From the IMG/VR virus record IMGVR_UViG_3300009375_000046, positions 1 to 20,597 of that record: a DNA stretch of 20,597 bases, one strand, 5' to 3'. Shown here piece after piece: positions 2,066 to 18,915 of this stretch. Made by a program: the position numbers and the translations under genes. Positions within the stretch are counted from its first letter, which is position 1. Each line of letters opens with the position of its first letter. This DNA comes from a virus. The notes beneath the pieces were generated by a model. It saw only the letters and a list, made by a program, of their open reading frames with translations. It searched no databases and had not been told where the DNA came from.

Positions 2066-4753
2066 ATGGCAGATTTTACACTATCAAATTTAGATATTAA
2101 TGTTTTTAAAAAACAAACATTTATTCAAATAGATGAGACTTTACCGGGTACCAATTGGGATTCAAATAAAGGCTGCTGGTCAACTACAGTTGATAATGTC
2201 AAAGTAAATGATTTTGATACTGGTTTAACAATTTCAGCAACACCATACGCAGATGCCGAGGTTCAGGTTTTTGTGAATGGAGTAAGAGTTGAAGTTGGTG
2301 ATGGAGATAAGCATAATACGACAGCAGGAGATAACACAGCAGCTTGCTATTTTTCAGGTGATAATGGAGAAACTGCCAGGCTCATAGATAATATAGAAAT
2401 AGGAGATAAATTTTATTGGAATACTATAATAGCAGGATATGCGTTAGATTATTTTGGTATAAGACATTCAAGTAATGATGATCTTGATTTTGCATATTTT
2501 CTAGAAGACGTAGATATAGAAGAATATTTAGAAGATAAATGGGTTCCTCAATATATGCAGCAAGAACTTTCTGTAGATACAGAAGGGAAACAGACCATAC
2601 TAATAGCTAAAGAGCATTCAGTAAGTTCAATAGGTGGCACCTTGGTTATTACATTGAATGAACCATATAAAAATGTAAAATCAATTCTATCATCATCATC
2701 AATAGTTAAAAGAGATAGAGGAACTATTTCAGGAACAGTTAGCGGTGCTAAAGGGACTGATACTATTTTCGGTACTAACGTTAGCTTCAACTCAGATGTA
2801 GCAGTTGGAGATATCATTTGGATAGACTCTAAACATAGCTACGTGATTAGTACAATATCAGGAGATACACTCGCAATTGTAGGAGAATTAAAAGAAGGTT
2901 TTAGTAATGCTACATACTTTTTAGGAGAATCAGACGATACTAAATTTGATAAATTTTTTAGATGGAGTATTGATAATGACATATATTCAGAATATTTTCC
3001 ACTAGATGATTTAACTTTACAGAATTTAGAATTAGATCCAAAGAATGATTTTTGGATAGAATATAAGTTTGAAGCAGCAGATCTTGAGCAAAACAGTGCA
3101 CTTTCTATAGTATCAATATCACTAGAGGTTGAAACTAATGATGGTATTTTAAGTATAATGCCGCAAATTGAATATGCTGGTGATTATTTTGATCCAGCTG
3201 GATTTGGAAACTTAATCATCGAAGAGATAAATACAGATAATGTATTTAAGCCTTATGATTTAGGAAGAGCAGATAAAGTATATGCACAACTTGTGGGTAT
3301 GACTAGTGACATATTTGGACATGATGTTAAGTATTTTAGAGTAGTTGCAAATGAAAGAAGTAAAGATGTTATTTTACATGAGTATTCTTTAAAGTCTGTA
3401 GCAGCAATCGGCGATATAAAAATCATGGTACCTAACAACGAGTTTCCTACACAAGAACTACAGTATAACCCATTTGGGATAGATTTTGATGAATTCGAGA
3501 TTCATGTCACGAAGAAAGCATTTCAAGAGATATTTGGAGCCAAAACAGAACCACGAGTAGATGATTATCTATATTTGCCAATTATGAATAGAATGTATTT
3601 AGTCAATTCAGTTATACCTGCAGATGAGTTTAACGTACAGCATACTTTCTATAGACTTCAATTAAATAAGTATGAAGATAAAGCTAGTATTGTTAAATCT
3701 GATGAAGTTCAGGAAGAAATGAATGATTTAATTACAGGAGTTGATGCAATATTTGGTGAAGAAGTGCAAGAAGAATTTGAAAAATCAACAAAGCCATTGC
3801 AATATTCTACAATAGGTGCTGGTAAAGATGATTTTGTCAGAAGCGACATTTCTGGAGACTTATCAATTATAGATGAAGACATTAATAACAGCTTTACAAT
3901 AGTATCAAAAAATCACTATGATCTATCAAACATCTCTAATAATAATATTGCAATAAAATATAGAGCAAGTTCAAAGCAAACGCATGAAGAAAGTAGAGCG
4001 TATTCGTTCTGGTTTAGAAGTCATTTGCAAGCTGATAATATAAAGGATGTAAGTTATTCATTATCTGATTCTGGGTATGTTCAATTAAGCTCTCCATACT
4101 TTGATAATGTATATACAGTGGGTGACTTTGTAGAACTTAAGCAATCTGGACAGATTAATGGTTTATTTCAAGTAAGAGAAGTTATTAGTGATACAAAATA
4201 TATGCTTGACTGGGCAGCTAGTGCAGTTCCTGCTACCGGTAAAGCAATATGGAAAGATGTAGTTACACCAATATGTTCAAATACAGATGACGTTACTAAA
4301 GGTATTAGTATTAAAATAATGAGAGGCTTTCTAGCATTTATTATTAATAATGATATTTATAAGTTTGAAACTCTTACAGATTATGAAAATGACACATGGC
4401 ATGCATTTATTATAAATCATAATAACATATTTAATCAACTTGGCGTATTTTTATACCATTTAGATACAAACATGACCCAGCGCTCTTGGGTACAAGGAGA
4501 CACGAATTTAGTTAAAGACTATAGACATACTGTAGACATTAACCCCTTATACGATATCAAAGAAGGTATTAATTGGGCTGTGCTTGGTGGGAATATAGAT
4601 TTAACAAATTTACGGATATTTAATAAGCCGTTAGATGAAGAGCAGCATTCTAATATATTAAATCAATACGTCGTTAGAGATTCAGATAAAGCAATACTTA
4701 TAGATAATGCACTTCCTCAAGTTAAACTAATGCGTTTAGCAAATAACAGATAA
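2066..4753 (+). CDS. Large chimeric virion protein with gp14-like neck segment and lectin-like C-terminus
   Basis: An 895-residue beta-rich protein of mixed make-up. Residues about 60-150 (VFVNGVRVEVG, CYFSGDNGETAR, GDKFYWN) resemble a module seen in marine phage structural proteins. About 215-290 is a small beta domain (GTISGTVSG ... VAVGDIIWID). About 455-545 (NPFGIDFDEFEIHVTKKAF, then DDYLYLPIMNRMYLVNSV, then a FYRLQLNKYE end) follows the pattern of T4 neck protein gp14. From about 620 the protein looks like a concanavalin/LamG-type lectin domain, ending in LTNLRIFNKPLDEEQ, with an inserted module at about 655-740. T4 gp14 is only about 256 aa, so this would be a much enlarged neck or head-completion protein, with possible surface-glycan binding. 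It lies just ahead of the terminase genes, where head-neck genes sit in T4-like phages. No Shine-Dalgarno is present: the 35-nt leader is A/T-rich. Other structural roles (decoration or fibre protein) are possible. Confidence 0.5.
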   Translation: MADFTLSNLDINVFKKQTFIQIDETLPGTNWDSNKGCWSTTVDNVKVNDFDTGLTISATPYADAEVQVFVNGVRVEVGDGDKHNTTAGDNTAACYFSGDNGETARLIDNIEIGDKFYWNTIIAGYALDYFGIRHSSNDDLDFAYFLEDVDIEEYLEDKWVPQYMQQELSVDTEGKQTILIAKEHSVSSIGGTLVITLNEPYKNVKSILSSSSIVKRDRGTISGTVSGAKGTDTIFGTNVSFNSDVAVGDIIWIDSKHSYVISTISGDTLAIVGELKEGFSNATYFLGESDDTKFDKFFRWSIDNDIYSEYFPLDDLTLQNLELDPKNDFWIEYKFEAADLEQNSALSIVSISLEVETNDGILSIMPQIEYAGDYFDPAGFGNLIIEEINTDNVFKPYDLGRADKVYAQLVGMTSDIFGHDVKYFRVVANERSKDVILHEYSLKSVAAIGDIKIMVPNNEFPTQELQYNPFGIDFDEFEIHVTKKAFQEIFGAKTEPRVDDYLYLPIMNRMYLVNSVIPADEFNVQHTFYRLQLNKYEDKASIVKSDEVQEEMNDLITGVDAIFGEEVQEEFEKSTKPLQYSTIGAGKDDFVRSDISGDLSIIDEDINNSFTIVSKNHYDLSNISNNNIAIKYRASSKQTHEESRAYSFWFRSHLQADNIKDVSYSLSDSGYVQLSSPYFDNVYTVGDFVELKQSGQINGLFQVREVISDTKYMLDWAASAVPATGKAIWKDVVTPICSNTDDVTKGISIKIMRGFLAFIINNDIYKFETLTDYENDTWHAFIINHNNIFNQLGVFLYHLDTNMTQRSWVQGDTNLVKDYRHTVDINPLYDIKEGINWAVLGGNIDLTNLRIFNKPLDEEQHSNILNQYVVRDSDKAILIDNALPQVKLMRLANNR

Positions 4754-5374: not shown

Positions 5375-7194
5375 TGCTAAATGGATCTTGGGTACCTAAT
5401 AGTGTTGCCAAAAGCAATGAAGTTGAGAAGTTTATATGGTCAACTAAACAGCTTAATGAATTAAACAAAGCTCAAGAAGAAGGCATTAACATTAAAATGG
5501 CAAGCCCTTATTATGAGGGTAATCCTAATCTCAGAAAAGGAAACCTGATATTTGAGTATACTAAAGATGAAATGGGAGAGATTCAGAGATGTGCTAAAGA
5601 CATTATTTATTTCGCAGAACATTATGCAAATGTAATGACTGATGATGGCATAGTGCTCATAAAACTAAGAGACTATCAAAAAGATATGTTGATAGATATG
5701 GTAGAAAATCGTTTTGTTATTGCAATGGCGAGTCGCCAAGTCGGAAAAACTATATTATCAAGTATTTTTATAGCATGGTTCAATCTGTTCAGTTTTGATA
5801 AAAATACAATGATTTTAGCGAATAAGGGAGCAACTACAAAGGAAATTATTGATAAGACAAAGGTTATTATAGAAAACTTACCATTTTTTATGAAACCCGG
5901 AGTAACGAAATATGATGTTATGGAGTCTAGATTTGATAATGGCTGTAGGATTGTTGGTCAAAGTACTACAGCAAAATCAGGTATTTCATTTACAATACAT
6001 TTGTTATTTTTAGATGAGTTTGCGCACATTCATCATTCTATACTAAATTCTTTTTATGAAAACGTGTTTCCTACCCTGTCAGCATCAAAAGTTAGTAGAA
6101 TTATTATTACTAGTACAGTTAATGGCTATAATAAATTTTATGATATCTATAATAAAGCTGAGAGGGGTATGAACGAGTTTCATTCAATTAGAGTTGATTG
6201 GTGGCAAGTCCCAGGAAGAGATGAAGAGTGGAAGCAAAAGGAAATTGCAAATCTCGGGAGCGAAGAGGCATTTAATAGACAATATGGCAATCAATTTATG
6301 TCAAATTCAACATTACTTTTAGATGGTGGGACATTAGATAGACTAACCAGATATAGAGAAGCATATACTAAAGAAACTTTAAATGTATTTGAAGATAGCT
6401 CAATAACAATCGACGATTATTTATTCTGGAGACCAGGCTTTGACATAGAATCTGTTAAAGATAAAAATAGATTTTTTGTCTTTTCAATTGATATAGCAGA
6501 GGGTTCTGGTGGAGATTATTCAGTAATTAACATGTTTGAAGTACTTCCGCTAGAACATGAATATTATAGATATTTAACTGACCCTGGTTCTTTGATTGAT
6601 TTATTTAAATTACAACAAATTGGAGTATTTAGAAGCAATGAGCATATCATTAAAGATTTTGCAAAGATCACATATATTTTAGCAATTGATATATTTGAGC
6701 AAGAAAATGTTAAGCTTGTAATTGAGTTTAATACATACGGGTCTGTGTTTATTAATGAGCTAAGAACTGTGTTTCCGCGTCGCAATAATTTTGATGATGA
6801 AATGATAGTTAGATTTAAGCATAGACATGATGCAAGAAAATATAATTATGGCTTAAAAATTAAAAAAGATAATAAACCCATTTTATGTCAAGCGTTTAAG
6901 AGATTAGCTGAAGAGCATAGAATTAACATAAACGAGGCAGAAACTATTAAGGAAATTCAAAGTTTTGGAAAAATGCCAAATGGGAGTTATGGTGGACAGA
7001 TGGGACATGATGATTTAGCAATGTCGATTGTAAATGTTACAGAGTTTTTAAATACTGTAGATTATGCAGATTATGCAGAAGAACTATTAGATGCAATAAA
7101 TGAAGATGATTATAAGATTATGGAGAACTTTATATTTGAAGATTCAAACTTAGAAGGCAATTTAAACTTTGACATATACTCATTATTATCTTAA
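5374..7194 (+). CDS. 17: Large terminase, ATPase and nuclease (gp17)
   Basis: A 606-residue packaging motor, near the T4 gp17 length (610). The ATPase half has Walker A SRQVGKT (residues 120-126), Walker B LLFLDEF (210-216, D214 and E215) and a coupling-type motif IIITSTVNG near 245. The RNase H-fold nuclease half has its three expected acidic residues: FSIDIAEGSG (D373), LVIEFNTYG (E451) and MGHDDLAMS (D546/D547). It cuts concatemeric DNA and drives it into the prohead through the portal. The start overlaps the gp16 stop by one base, indicating coupled translation. The gene is followed by a 65-nt gap holding a late promoter for the sheath gene, so gp16-gp17 and gp18 can be transcribed independently. 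Confidence 0.95.
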   Translation: MLNGSWVPNSVAKSNEVEKFIWSTKQLNELNKAQEEGINIKMASPYYEGNPNLRKGNLIFEYTKDEMGEIQRCAKDIIYFAEHYANVMTDDGIVLIKLRDYQKDMLIDMVENRFVIAMASRQVGKTILSSIFIAWFNLFSFDKNTMILANKGATTKEIIDKTKVIIENLPFFMKPGVTKYDVMESRFDNGCRIVGQSTTAKSGISFTIHLLFLDEFAHIHHSILNSFYENVFPTLSASKVSRIIITSTVNGYNKFYDIYNKAERGMNEFHSIRVDWWQVPGRDEEWKQKEIANLGSEEAFNRQYGNQFMSNSTLLLDGGTLDRLTRYREAYTKETLNVFEDSSITIDDYLFWRPGFDIESVKDKNRFFVFSIDIAEGSGGDYSVINMFEVLPLEHEYYRYLTDPGSLIDLFKLQQIGVFRSNEHIIKDFAKITYILAIDIFEQENVKLVIEFNTYGSVFINELRTVFPRRNNFDDEMIVRFKHRHDARKYNYGLKIKKDNKPILCQAFKRLAEEHRININEAETIKEIQSFGKMPNGSYGGQMGHDDLAMSIVNVTEFLNTVDYADYAEELLDAINEDDYKIMENFIFEDSNLEGNLNFDIYSLLS

Positions 7195-7225
7195 ATTTTA
7201 ATATTTATTAAAGAAAAGCTTGATA

Positions 7226-7233
7226 TATAAATA
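7226..7233 (+). promoter_or_regulatory. T4-type late promoter upstream of tail sheath
   Basis: Exact TATAAATA, the -10-like element of T4 late promoters, 26 nt ahead of the sheath ATG and in a non-coding gap. No -35 box is evident, as expected for this class. The leader downstream consists only of A/T-rich repeats of AATAAA type and contains no Shine-Dalgarno. Confidence 0.75.
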
Positions 7234-7259
7234 AAACCAATAAAATAAATAAAATTAAA

Positions 7260-9137
7260 ATGGCAATTTCACCACAATTAGCACAATTTAAATCAAGTGG
7301 GGTTTATCGTTTAGAGTTTGATAAAAGTCAAACTGTCAATATTCCAGCTGAAACTATAAGATTAGTAGTTGGATATTCAAATAAAGGCCCTGCTAATACT
7401 CCGATGTATATACCAGATACGTCGTTCTTTCAAGATGTTTACGGACCAATTGATAGAAAATTAGAAAGATTAGGTCATTTTTTCCATAGAAGTGCATTAA
7501 CTGCACTTGAAAGAGGACCTATTTTAGCATTGAACTTACATAACATAGGCGCAGGGGATACAGTAGATGCACTAGCAGTAGATGCTGATGCAACATTTAC
7601 AGCTGCATATAAAATAGATGGAGATTATCAAGATTTTTACAACAGAGAGAAATTTTGGTACCCTGAAGATGAAGCTATGCTAAATGCAATGGGCGTCAGT
7701 TCAAAGCTTTTAAACTTTGTAAATCTAAAACAAGATCCAATTACTATATTAGTAAAGAAATCAGAAAACACAGCAGGCTTTGAAATAGAAGCACAAGAAT
7801 GGTATGGAGTTGGGAATGTACCAGAATTTATTGCTGATGATGATCTCATTTCTGATTACTTAATTGAAGTAGCAGTTCTTAAAGGTGACTGGAGCGCAGA
7901 CTTGAGTTCTCATGCAGTATTTGGAGATTACTTCGACGCAAATGGTCTTTTATACACAACAATGGATGAATTCTTTAATCTTTCACAAGTTACAGTACTT
8001 GGAAGATACGAAGGTATTCTTATTCCAGATTTTGTAGATGGAGATGGAAATTCTATGTCGTTAGAAGATTCAATAAATTTCGAAACATCTAAAACAGGAT
8101 TATTCTGTGCAATAGATGATTCTAAATGGGATACTGAAAACCCAGTAGCAATGTCTGCGACACAACCTACTTCGTATGATATGAATAATCTTGATGGATT
8201 TGCTGCACCTGGTACAGATAATTTCTATAATCCAATTCTTGGTACGAATCTATTTAAAGCATTAATTAATAAAGATGAAGTATCATTTAGATATGTCGTT
8301 GATACATTTTCTAATGGAACTACAGCAGAATCTACTTTATCAAAACTAGCAAAAGCTAGACAAAATGCATTTGCAATTTGTAATGCACCATCAGTTGCTA
8401 CATTTAAAGCATCTGCTGATTATGTTGATTCAAGTGGTACAGTAAGTCCAATGAAAATATCTGAAAATTATGCATTTCCAAGCATTACTGATGGAGCAAA
8501 TTATTCAGGTTGGTACGGACCTCACATAATAGTTAAAGATAAAGGCAAATCAATTAAAGTGCCACCAGCAGCATACATTTCAAATAATTTTATTGATAAG
8601 TATACAGCAGCTACTCCTTGGGCAATTATTGCAGGACCAAGAAGAGGAGTTGTAGGTGGAACTGGTGTAGTTGGTTTAGAAGTTAACTTTGATAGAGAAG
8701 ATAGAGATTTTCTTGAACCGTTTGGCTATAATCCAATCATCTTCCAAAGAGGTGTTGGCTTAACTATCACTGGAAATAAAACAGCACAGCAATCAGTTAA
8801 ATCTGCACTATCTTCAGTACACGTAAGAGAAGTATTAATTTATATTGAAGATGGAATGGCTGCGATCCTTAAAAATTACTTATTTGAATTTAATACAGCA
8901 CAGACAAGACTTGAAATTAAAACATTAGCAGATAGCTTCATGAATACTGTTAAAGCAGAAGGAGGAGTTTATGACTTTAGAAATGTCATGGATTCTACTA
9001 ATAATTCTAACGAAGTAGTCGACGCAAACATGGGTATTCTTGATACTTTTGTAGAACCAGTTAAAGGTTTAGAAATTCTTGTTCATAGAACTACAGTTCT
9101 TAAAACAGGAGGTATTGCAACTGGCCAATATGTTTAA
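7260..9137 (+). CDS. 18: Tail sheath protein (gp18)
   Basis: A 625-residue contractile sheath subunit, close to T4 gp18 (659 aa). The N-terminus (SSGVYRLEFDKSQ ... LVVGYSNKGPANTP) is the conserved opening of myovirus sheath proteins. The C-terminal third (from about 515, VHVREVLIYIEDGMAAILKN, through EVVDANMGILDTFVEPVKGL) is the conserved core domain that links neighbouring subunits. Many copies stack around the tube and contract on host attachment. The gene has its own late promoter 26 nt upstream and no Shine-Dalgarno, yet it should be strongly expressed. The next late promoter begins 5 nt after its stop codon. Start choice: the ATG at 7260 follows the promoter and gives the expected MAISPQLAQ start. 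Confidence 0.93.
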   Translation: MAISPQLAQFKSSGVYRLEFDKSQTVNIPAETIRLVVGYSNKGPANTPMYIPDTSFFQDVYGPIDRKLERLGHFFHRSALTALERGPILALNLHNIGAGDTVDALAVDADATFTAAYKIDGDYQDFYNREKFWYPEDEAMLNAMGVSSKLLNFVNLKQDPITILVKKSENTAGFEIEAQEWYGVGNVPEFIADDDLISDYLIEVAVLKGDWSADLSSHAVFGDYFDANGLLYTTMDEFFNLSQVTVLGRYEGILIPDFVDGDGNSMSLEDSINFETSKTGLFCAIDDSKWDTENPVAMSATQPTSYDMNNLDGFAAPGTDNFYNPILGTNLFKALINKDEVSFRYVVDTFSNGTTAESTLSKLAKARQNAFAICNAPSVATFKASADYVDSSGTVSPMKISENYAFPSITDGANYSGWYGPHIIVKDKGKSIKVPPAAYISNNFIDKYTAATPWAIIAGPRRGVVGGTGVVGLEVNFDREDRDFLEPFGYNPIIFQRGVGLTITGNKTAQQSVKSALSSVHVREVLIYIEDGMAAILKNYLFEFNTAQTRLEIKTLADSFMNTVKAEGGVYDFRNVMDSTNNSNEVVDANMGILDTFVEPVKGLEILVHRTTVLKTGGIATGQYV

Positions 9138-9835: not shown

Positions 9836-10303
9836 ATGTTAGTATTTAAGACTGTTAATATACTAAACGGGAAGGTTTTTATAGGATCCTCTACAAAAAA
9901 TAATCCTAATTTTCTTGGGTCAAGCAAAGCTTTACTAAAAGACATCAGAAAGTTTGGTATTAAGAATTTTCAAAGGGAAGTAATAGAACACTGTGAAACA
10001 AAGTCAGAGCTATTCGAAAGAGAAAGATATTGGATACAGCAGCTAAAAGCGTACAATAAAAGTATAGGTTATAACAGCGATGAAGAAATTACAAACGAGC
10101 TTTTAAATAAAAAAATACAAGTATTGCTGACAAAGTCAGAGTTGAAAGATCTAAATACCGTTATTTTAAATGAAGCATATGCAGAGCAAATAAAACCAAT
10201 GTCAGTTTCTTCCTATGCTAGAAAAATAATAAATGCACATGTTAGTGTAATATTACATGAGCAGAAATCATATGTTAAAATGAAAACAAAAGAGCTAATA
10301 TAA
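9836..10303 (+). CDS. Probable GIY-YIG homing endonuclease with ribbon-helix-helix-like C-terminus
   Basis: A 155-residue protein. Residues 2-20 (LVFKTVNILNGKVFIGSS) match the opening of Seg-type GIY-YIG nucleases, with VFK where GIY is usual and FIG for YIG. This is followed by FLGSSKALLKDIRKFGIKNF (27-45), EVIEHCETKSEL and the ERERYWI segment (E61, E63) in which the metal-binding glutamate is expected. Residues about 92-137 (KIQVLLTKSEL ... SVSSYARKIINAHV) look like a MobC/CopG-type ribbon-helix-helix DNA-binding segment. T4-like phages carry many such free-standing mobile endonucleases that cut sister genomes and spread. It sits between the tube terminator and the gp26-like gene, its TAA overlapping the next ATG. 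There is no Shine-Dalgarno and no late promoter octamer upstream. The degenerate first motif means activity is not assured. Confidence 0.68.
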   Translation: MLVFKTVNILNGKVFIGSSTKNNPNFLGSSKALLKDIRKFGIKNFQREVIEHCETKSELFERERYWIQQLKAYNKSIGYNSDEEITNELLNKKIQVLLTKSELKDLNTVILNEAYAEQIKPMSVSSYARKIINAHVSVILHEQKSYVKMKTKELI

Positions 10304-15022: not shown

Positions 15023-15498
15023 GGGGCTGACTGGTTTCGACTAGTGTTTTTTGATAATTAAGTGCAGTAAGAGATTGGGTAAGTCTCTTTTTAAACGTGC
15101 CCACAACCATACTTAGCGAAGAAGTTAATCTCGCAGGGTTAGATATTGATTGGCATTTATCAGATTATGATATGCCTATTGTAGCACCTGTTACACAATA
15201 TCAGCCAATCTATGCATATGCTGCTTAGGTTCGATAGTTACTTAATACTATTGCATTAAACAAATTAAGTAAAAACTGTTGTTAAGTACAGTAAAAAGGG
15301 TTAATATTATGTCTTTAAACCAGTAACCCCGAAACACCCGTAAGACCGCTGTTAGAAAGACAACTTAACTATCTTTCAATTATGATAAGATATAAAAGAA
15401 GAATATTTGACTTTGTTTATTGGAAAGAAATAAGCTAAACTGTGAACGACTTATTATTGATGACATTTAGGACGGGAGTTCGATTCTCCCCAGCTCCA
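15023..15498 (+). ncRNA. ssrA: Transfer-messenger RNA (tmRNA), one-piece
   Basis: Starts GGGGCTGACTGGTTTCGAC and ends with T-arm GGGAG-TTCGATT-CTCCC and CAGCTCC. The 5' GGGGCTG pairs with 3' CAGCTCC over 7 bp (one G-U), followed by discriminator A; CCA is not encoded. The long H2 helix is supported by CTAGTG...AATTAAGT near the 5' end against ACTTATTATT...CATTTAG near 15447-15471. Pseudoknot 1 is visible: stem AAGAGA/TCTCTT with loop TGGG pairing CCCA (15100-15103). Downstream, GGGTTA/TAACCC and ATAGT/ACTAT form later helices. At about 476 nt it is longer than E. coli tmRNA (363). It would free ribosomes stalled on broken messages and tag the products for proteolysis. Being one-piece, it is not of alphaproteobacterial permuted type. 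Confidence 0.94.
15115..15228 (+). other. tmRNA tag reading frame, about 37 codons
   Basis: Best reading: resume codon AGC (15115-15117), 12 nt after pseudoknot 1, with A at -4 in UACUU, as in the E. coli UAGUC. The tag begins SEEVNLAG and ends APVTQYQPIYAYAA before TAG (15226-15228). The Ala-Ala end preceded by aromatic and small residues is what ClpXP-type proteases recognise. Starting instead at GAA would shorten it by one residue. Known tags are mostly about 8-15 residues, with mycoplasma tags near 27. A GCG start in another frame gives AKKLISQG, with an end unlike a degradation signal. Confidence 0.7.
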
Positions 15499-15540
15499 CA
15501 TGAAATTATTTTGCAAATAATTGAAGTTTTCCTTTCATGT
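15498..15540 (+). terminator. Hairpin after tmRNA, possible terminator or processing signal
   Basis: An outer inverted repeat ACATGAAA (15498-15505) / TTTCATGT (15533-15540) can enclose, or compete with, an inner perfect 8-bp stem AATTATTT (15504-15511) / AAATAATT (15515-15522), followed by GAAGTTTTCC. The stem is A/T-only and the T-run is short, so termination is uncertain. Confidence 0.4.
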
Positions 15541-18300: not shown

Positions 18301-18915
18301 ATAGAAACAATCACATACAAAGAAGCAACATTAAATTTCTTAAAAACAAGATCTGATGAAGATTATCAGACATTGTATAATCGAGTAAAGCCTGGGCTAT
18401 ATGGTTTTATCTTAAAGCTAGTCAAAAACAAAGAAGTTGCAGATGATTTATTTGCAAATACAATGATAAAGCTTTATACAAAGATAGATCAATATAATTT
18501 AGATTTTGCAATTACTACTTGGCTTTATCGTATTGCTAGAAATGAATGTTATGCATACTTTAACGAACAAAAGAAAACTGTATCAATTGAGCCCATGCTG
18601 GATAAGGGATATGCACCTCATGAAAACAGTGATGGTCATATTACTATAAACGCATCTGAAGATATTAGTAATGAAGCATTTGTAGAAATAACCGATGAAG
18701 AGTATCTTGAAGAAGAACAGAAAATCATTAATAAATATAATGATGTCATTGAAGCAATTCATGGGTTAAAGCCTTTATACAGAGCTATTATGATTGATAG
18801 AATGATAAATAACATGAAATATAAAGATATTGCAAATAAGCATAATATGACATTACAGACTGTTAAGAACAGAATTCGAAGAGGCAAGTACTTAATTAAA
18901 AAAGAATTGGAGTAG
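18301..18915 (+). CDS. ECF-like RNA polymerase sigma factor, AUA start
   Basis: Region 2 covers about residues 20-92 (DEDYQTLYNRVKPGLYGF ... VADDLFANTMIKLYTKIDQY ... TTWLYRIARNECYAYF), and region 4 about 150-204 (KYKDIANKHNMTLQTVKNRI, a helix-turn-helix, then RRGKYLIKKELE), joined by an acidic linker. The first conventional start, TTG at 18373, has no Shine-Dalgarno and would cut into region 2. The frame continues upstream to ATA at 18301, placed 9 nt after AGGAG (18287-18291), with no ATG, GTG or TTG between, so an AUA start giving 204 aa is the best fit. It probably directs phage transcription, perhaps from the TATAAATA promoters. T4 late sigma gp55 lacks region 4. It follows the nuclease-like gene by 17 nt. 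Confidence 0.82.
   Translation: METITYKEATLNFLKTRSDEDYQTLYNRVKPGLYGFILKLVKNKEVADDLFANTMIKLYTKIDQYNLDFAITTWLYRIARNECYAYFNEQKKTVSIEPMLDKGYAPHENSDGHITINASEDISNEAFVEITDEEYLEEEQKIINKYNDVIEAIHGLKPLYRAIMIDRMINNMKYKDIANKHNMTLQTVKNRIRRGKYLIKKELE

Follow-up and report, generated by a model that had tools for sequence, protein, structure and literature searches.

A putative 37-residue, two-block tag in a phage tmRNA and its relatives

The 20,597-nt stretch of viral DNA analyzed here (IMG/VR record IMGVR_UViG_3300009375_000046; hereafter, the window) contains, at 15023-15499, what its sequence and predicted fold identify as the full one-piece tmRNA of a marine phage, in which translation should resume at AGC 15115, 11 nt past pseudoknot 1, to add a tag of 37 residues: this exceeds every published length found. 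As judged by comparison with relatives, the tag is built of two constrained blocks and a neutral, variable-length linker, as would suit a pair of recognition elements held together by a spacer, and the long tail probably does a specific job, because both blocks recur, around a spacer free to vary, in about a hundred further phage contigs. The favored interpretation, held with somewhat better than even confidence and without expression or tagging data, is a functional phage tmRNA whose tag is a two-part degradation signal consisting of a docking block, a spacer and an AYA(A) degron.

The tmRNA gene and its reading frame

The Rfam covariance model RF00023 matched window 15023-15501 over the full model (1-374) with 64.7 bits (E 1.9e-23), above the curated gathering score of 47 bits, and was the sole Rfam match across the window; ARAGORN did not report a tmRNA there. 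The gene itself (ssrA; all features given here are on the + strand) is placed at 15023-15499, with its processed ends inferred: a sequence-only reading of the same DNA had the correct start, and an end one nucleotide short, at 15498. In the acceptor stem, 15023-15029 (GGGGCUG) pairs with 15491-15497 (CAGCUCC), the 3' strand continuing through the discriminator A (15498) and a first C (15499); CCA is not encoded at the 3' end. The pair G15025-U15495 is the G3-U70 alanine-identity pair, a wobble that marks alanine acceptance, charging itself being inferred. The T-arm (GGGAG UUCGAUU CUCCC) occupies 15474-15490. Pseudoknot 1 (15069-15103) is formed by AAGAGA 15069-15074 with UCUCUU 15084-15089 and UGGG 15076-15079 with CCCA 15100-15103, of which the second helix was read by eye.

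Tag-core and 5'-end patterns recovered seven family contigs from IMG/VR beyond the window's own, and a structural alignment was made of eight tmRNAs of the family. The tRNA-like domain, including G3-U70 and the T-arm, is kept in 8/8 with compensatory changes (acceptor-stem columns 1-7/480-486 stay paired in all), and 29 pairs of the consensus fold have changed on both sides, with the acceptor stem, helix 2 and the T-stem represented. In one relative, L416, acceptor pairs are swapped and G3-U70 is retained. The stems of pseudoknot 1 are aligned in the relatives. For the middle pseudoknots the fit to the RF00023 model is poor; one helix in the pseudoknot 2 region (columns 228-234/252-258) covaries among the eight, and the other downstream pseudoknots align weakly. 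The acceptor stem, T-arm, helix 2 and pseudoknot 1 that the sequence-only reading had picked out are borne out by the model score and the alignment, and the identity of the gene is established on these grounds. It is most likely a working phage tmRNA, for which alanine charging and SmpB use are inferred in the absence of expression, charging or tagging data.

Between pseudoknot 1 and the tag lies the 11-nt segment CAACCAUACUU (15104-15114), with U15110 and A15111 at -5 and -4 relative to AGC 15115; in E. coli, this A (A86) is the “ruler” from which the position of the resume codon, four nucleotides further on, is set (PMC2481249). From this AGC, a frame of 37 codons (15115-15225), SEEVNLAGLDIDWHLSDYDMPIVAPVTQYQPIYAYAA, runs to a C-terminal YAYAA and the stop codon TAG (15226-15228). 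The A at -4 is present in 102/102 relatives recovered with the tag-core pattern described below (after correction of 14 tags parsed one codon late, at the GAT after GGC); their resume codons are GGC, AGC, GGT and GAC, so that the AGC of the window is not unique. In the set recovered by a pseudoknot-1 pattern, the tag starts from either GGC or AGC, and position -4 is again A. Might translation resume elsewhere? Such A-rich DNA has further U-A pairs 5' of possible resume codons, which could give a short tag (GCG 15116, AKKLISQG followed by a stop) or entry into the same frame downstream, at about 15145-15175. This is very improbable, however: the spacing from pseudoknot 1, the alignment of GGC/AGC+GA across relatives and a conserved frame beginning exactly at the resume codon all favor 15115, and the AKKLISQG frame has neither conservation nor a hydrophobic end. 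The proposal of an approximately 37-codon tag starting at AGC 15115, with A at -4, has the support of the covariance model, of the pseudoknot 1 spacing together with that A and, above all, of the relatives, which settle the frame because they share it; of the two outcomes that would have overturned it, a tag in a different frame and resumption at about 15214, neither was seen in the model or in the relatives.

Relatives and selection on the tag

The relatives with this tag come from fragmentary IMG/VR contigs, bacterial genomes being outside the scope of the survey. A generic tmRNA 5' pattern recovered L265, whose tag, read from GGC, has 38 residues (GDNSLEGLVIDWHLAESDMSVGVEPVMVNDYQPTYAYA) and is started too late by ARAGORN (VNDYQPTYAYA); since ARAGORN misses or cuts such tags, long phage tags are probably under-counted. 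A looser tag-core pattern matched 105 contigs, in which all of the approximately 104 readable matches lie in a tmRNA context; their tags measure 34-42 residues, apart from one stop-loss variant in which the tag is extended. Because the pattern behind this set includes part of the N-terminal (N) block, the set would be circular as evidence of conservation and was not used alone for that purpose, and a second search therefore relied only on a pattern placed in helix 2 and pseudoknot 1, which takes no account of the tag. This yielded 73 contigs (one of them non-tmRNA), 72 with the start of this tmRNA and, after exclusion of two cut by the contig end, 70 with readable tags: 68 of these are 35-43 residues long and of common design, with IDWH in 60 and VDWH or IDWQ in eight, and two are short. 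The sequence-only reading had looked to conservation in relatives for support, and the relatives indeed have the same frame and tags of 34-43 residues.

The two short tags (L452 and L473; GNTANFAYA), in close relatives of the family tmRNA, keep the resume codon and an xAYA end, and so represent naturally occurring forms that lack both N block and linker. The closest likeness to the window tag is that of L416, GEDINLAGLVIDWHLADTDQVAELFSAPSLEHQPIYAYA. Another contig, IMG/VR 3300009405_000039, is 100% identical to the window over all overlapping DNA, and so gives no evolutionary information and is not an independent copy; BLASTN against 50,697 phage records found no match to the window locus or to the L265 tmRNA. 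In L376 and L417 the tag stop codon has been lost and the frame runs on to ...YAYAQVSELSNTRT; their sister L387 retains the stop. Campylobacterota tags, which end in YAPAYAKAA, were considered as possible kin of YQPIYAYAA and rejected, since the tag bodies differ and the phage relatives are Bacteroidota phages.

Selection was evaluated on 47 distinct long-tag sequences, 46 from the pseudoknot-1 set plus the window. The N block (LAGLDIDWHLS, 15130-15162; family SLxGLxIDWHLA) has a pN/pS of 0.34, with near-invariant L, G, L, D and W, and the C-terminal (C) block (QYQPIYAYAA, 15196-15225; family QP[TS]YAYA(A)), a probable terminal degron, one of 0.37; for the linker, the value is 1.01. Third codon positions account for 59% of changes in the N block, 35% in the linker and 53% in the C block, and linker length varies in both the tag-core and pseudoknot-1 sets with both tag ends fixed. 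Between the window and L265, over 35 aligned codons, dS is 2.4 (near saturation) and dN 0.29, with 22/37 differences at third positions. At the codon level, purifying selection on both blocks and neutrality of the linker are well established. The window tag ends in YAYAA and the family tags mostly in YAYA or AYAA, in place of the C-terminal ALAA/LAA of a ClpXP-type degron. Structure prediction for the tag gave no confident or usable fold (mean pLDDT 64.6), a PDB profile search with the N block matched no known adaptor or solved structure, and the N-block motif was found in no other protein of the family loci examined, the lone extra match being a tag cut by a contig end.

Phage carriers and possible roles of the tag

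The window carries T4-type genes (terminase large subunit, tail sheath, tail tube, baseplate hub), and the closest database relatives of its phage, LR756500.1 (uncultured, 462 kb), Tenacibaculum phage PTm1, Flavobacterium phage MaF61 and phage PAU, point by inference to a Bacteroidota host. A GIY-YIG nuclease gene (9836-10303), probably a homing endonuclease, lies between the tail-tube and baseplate-hub-like genes, and a phage sigma-factor-like gene (18373-18915; phrog_1740) possibly has a role in late transcription. The tmRNA of LR756500.1 has an ordinary 10-residue tag, GNNAEMRMAA, so that a long tag does not characterize this group as a whole. The main tag family is found in T4-like phages akin to Flavobacterium phage immuto and Microcystis phage Mel-JY01, where the tmRNA lies in a co-oriented neighborhood, between an upstream peptide deformylase gene and a downstream gene for a small conserved protein; in one of these contigs (L317, G053) peptide deformylase, GroES-like and SufB-like genes occur near the tmRNA, at 2020-2667, 3977-4273 and 6662-8104. 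No window protein matched the family loci around the tmRNA, and only the terminase matched the largest family contig, at 26% identity, besides two weak matches to an end-of-contig ORF. The sharing of this tmRNA by two phage lineages that scarcely match would mean either that it has moved between them or that it is very old.

On the favored interpretation of a two-part degradation signal, the phage tmRNA would enter stalled ribosomes of the infected cell as host tmRNA does, activated by host alanyl-tRNA synthetase and SmpB, and rescued proteins would gain Ala plus 37 residues rather than the usual tag of about 10. The N block (SLxGLxIDWHLA, here NLAGLDIDWHLS) would dock to an adaptor or protease domain, the unconstrained spacer would separate it from the C block, and the latter, ending in YAYA(A), would engage an AAA+ protease, the phage thereby controlling the fate of proteins from stalled ribosomes; that this benefits the phage is inferred, as are the identities of the protease and adaptor. 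SspB is known to bind the SsrA tag and deliver it to ClpX, which reads the tag C-terminus, and the ALAA end is reported to be highly conserved outside Mycoplasma (PMC3985003); the long mf-SsrA tag of Mesoplasma florum, ending in NYAFA, is read by Lon (PMC9382460). It is a reasonable guess, by analogy and without recognition data, that the AYA(A) end may direct proteins to Lon or to an adaptor-assisted protease. Neither SmpB nor a Lon domain was found in the window or among those larger family contigs that were searched for them, and ClpP-like domains occurred in only 1/37 family contigs, so that the host would need to supply the machinery. A set of 17 phage records was likewise without a Lon domain. 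The consequences that had been suggested from the sequence alone, handling by a different protease, binding of an adaptor or a peptide with a function of its own, are compatible with all of this and are sharpened to two blocks plus an AYA(A) end, with no biochemical data to decide among them. A more tentative extension is that these phages represent a widespread marine tmRNA lineage in which the tag has a second, conserved peptide function, the SLxGLxIDWHLA docking peptide rerouting proteins rescued during infection to a dedicated partner of phage or host origin, and not simply to ClpXP.

It is also possible, if rather unlikely, that the tag is not mainly a degron, and that the N block instead has a function of its own or serves in targeting, bringing truncated proteins, or else the rescued ribosome, to a partner from phage or host, with AYA(A) lowering degradation by ClpXP and not directing it. 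The two blocks are equally constrained, the dispensability of the N block in the two short-tag relatives suggests an added function, and the usual ALAA end (PMC3985003) has been replaced by YAYA or AYAA; but selection on the C block as well fits a degron, and no partner has been found, the motif being confined to the tag in the family loci examined. That the tmRNA serves ribosome rescue alone, its tag length being tolerated drift, is improbable: drift would not be expected to leave each block with a pN/pS of about 0.35, or L, G, L, D and W near-invariant, even though plaque assays require ribosome release and not the tag sequence (PMC2481249), the linker is neutral, and one variant is stop-less (L376, L417). 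Intact key elements, selection across the family and a fixed, co-oriented gene neighborhood in the main phage lineage make it scarcely credible that the window holds a decayed or captured non-functional tmRNA fragment, an idea for which there is only the restriction of the exact copy to one phage population (two identical contigs) and the poor fit of the middle pseudoknots to the model. A two-part degradation signal remains the preferred reading. Because two blocks are under selection around a neutral spacer in about a hundred contigs, the tag itself, beyond ribosome rescue, appears to matter to these phages, and the residues to test can be named.

Comparison with known systems

The sequence-only reading had taken known tags to be mostly of 8-15 residues, with about 27 in mycoplasmas, which is too narrow: published lengths range from 8 to 35 (PMC8012679), the commonest being 10, with new short extremes reported in a 2025 tmRNA database paper (PMC11915505). 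No paper describing long conserved phage tags was found, subscription papers and the tmRNA database itself being outside the search. With the standard one-piece bacterial tmRNA (ssrA, RF00023) the window tmRNA shares a tRNA-like domain with G3-U70, the T-arm, helix 2, pseudoknot 1, an A at -4 of the resume codon, and a hydrophobic-ended tag with its stop; it differs in its 37-codon tag, its AGC resume codon, its YAYAA rather than ALAA end, and in being phage-borne.

Phage-encoded ssrA is itself shared with the mycobacteriophage Bxz1 group, Bacillus phage G, Melnitz and the pelagimyophages, and huge phages, some of which carry SmpB; the Melnitz type is two-piece. No description of a long conserved tag in any of these was found in the papers searched. 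Tags outside the main family were read by hand with the same resume rule, and are less certain: 36 residues in LR756508.1 (GVNNADYESAGFTAEDFAQMDGESLYHGSERKPAAV), 24 or 28 in LR756504.1, about 38 in L165/L261, 27 in L199, 23 in L237 and 22 in L186. LR756504.1 and Lak phages (L343-L346) have SmpB and ClpP-like proteins in addition to their own tmRNA, and in the phage of L237 (219-kb contig G062) a ClpP-like gene, a P-loop kinase gene and the tmRNA form a row on one strand (L329, 175908-177463), the two protein genes being immediately upstream. The tRNA-like-domain-only tmRNA of phage DS6A shares with the present one phage interference with trans-translation, but is tagless and inhibits host tmRNA, whereas the window tmRNA has a full tag. 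A resemblance to this inhibitory mycobacteriophage RNA is seen in L339, a 112-nt RNA consisting of the tRNA-like domain only (LR756508.1 414804-414915; 58.2 bits to RF00023), whose genome also holds the full long-tag tmRNA.

Mycoplasma tmRNA tags are about 27 residues long. Like them, and like the Lon-read tag of Mesoplasma florum, the phage tag is long, and its end (YAYA or YAYAA in the family) recalls their Tyr-Ala-aromatic-Ala, Lon being on this basis only a conceivable reader, but its N block is dissimilar in sequence and its carriers have Bacteroidota-phage relatives. With the SsrA, SspB and ClpXP system of E. coli and Caulobacter it has in common an adaptor-binding segment, here putative, upstream of a C-terminal protease signal; the spacer of the phage tag is much longer, and its N block is presumably unlike known SspB sites.
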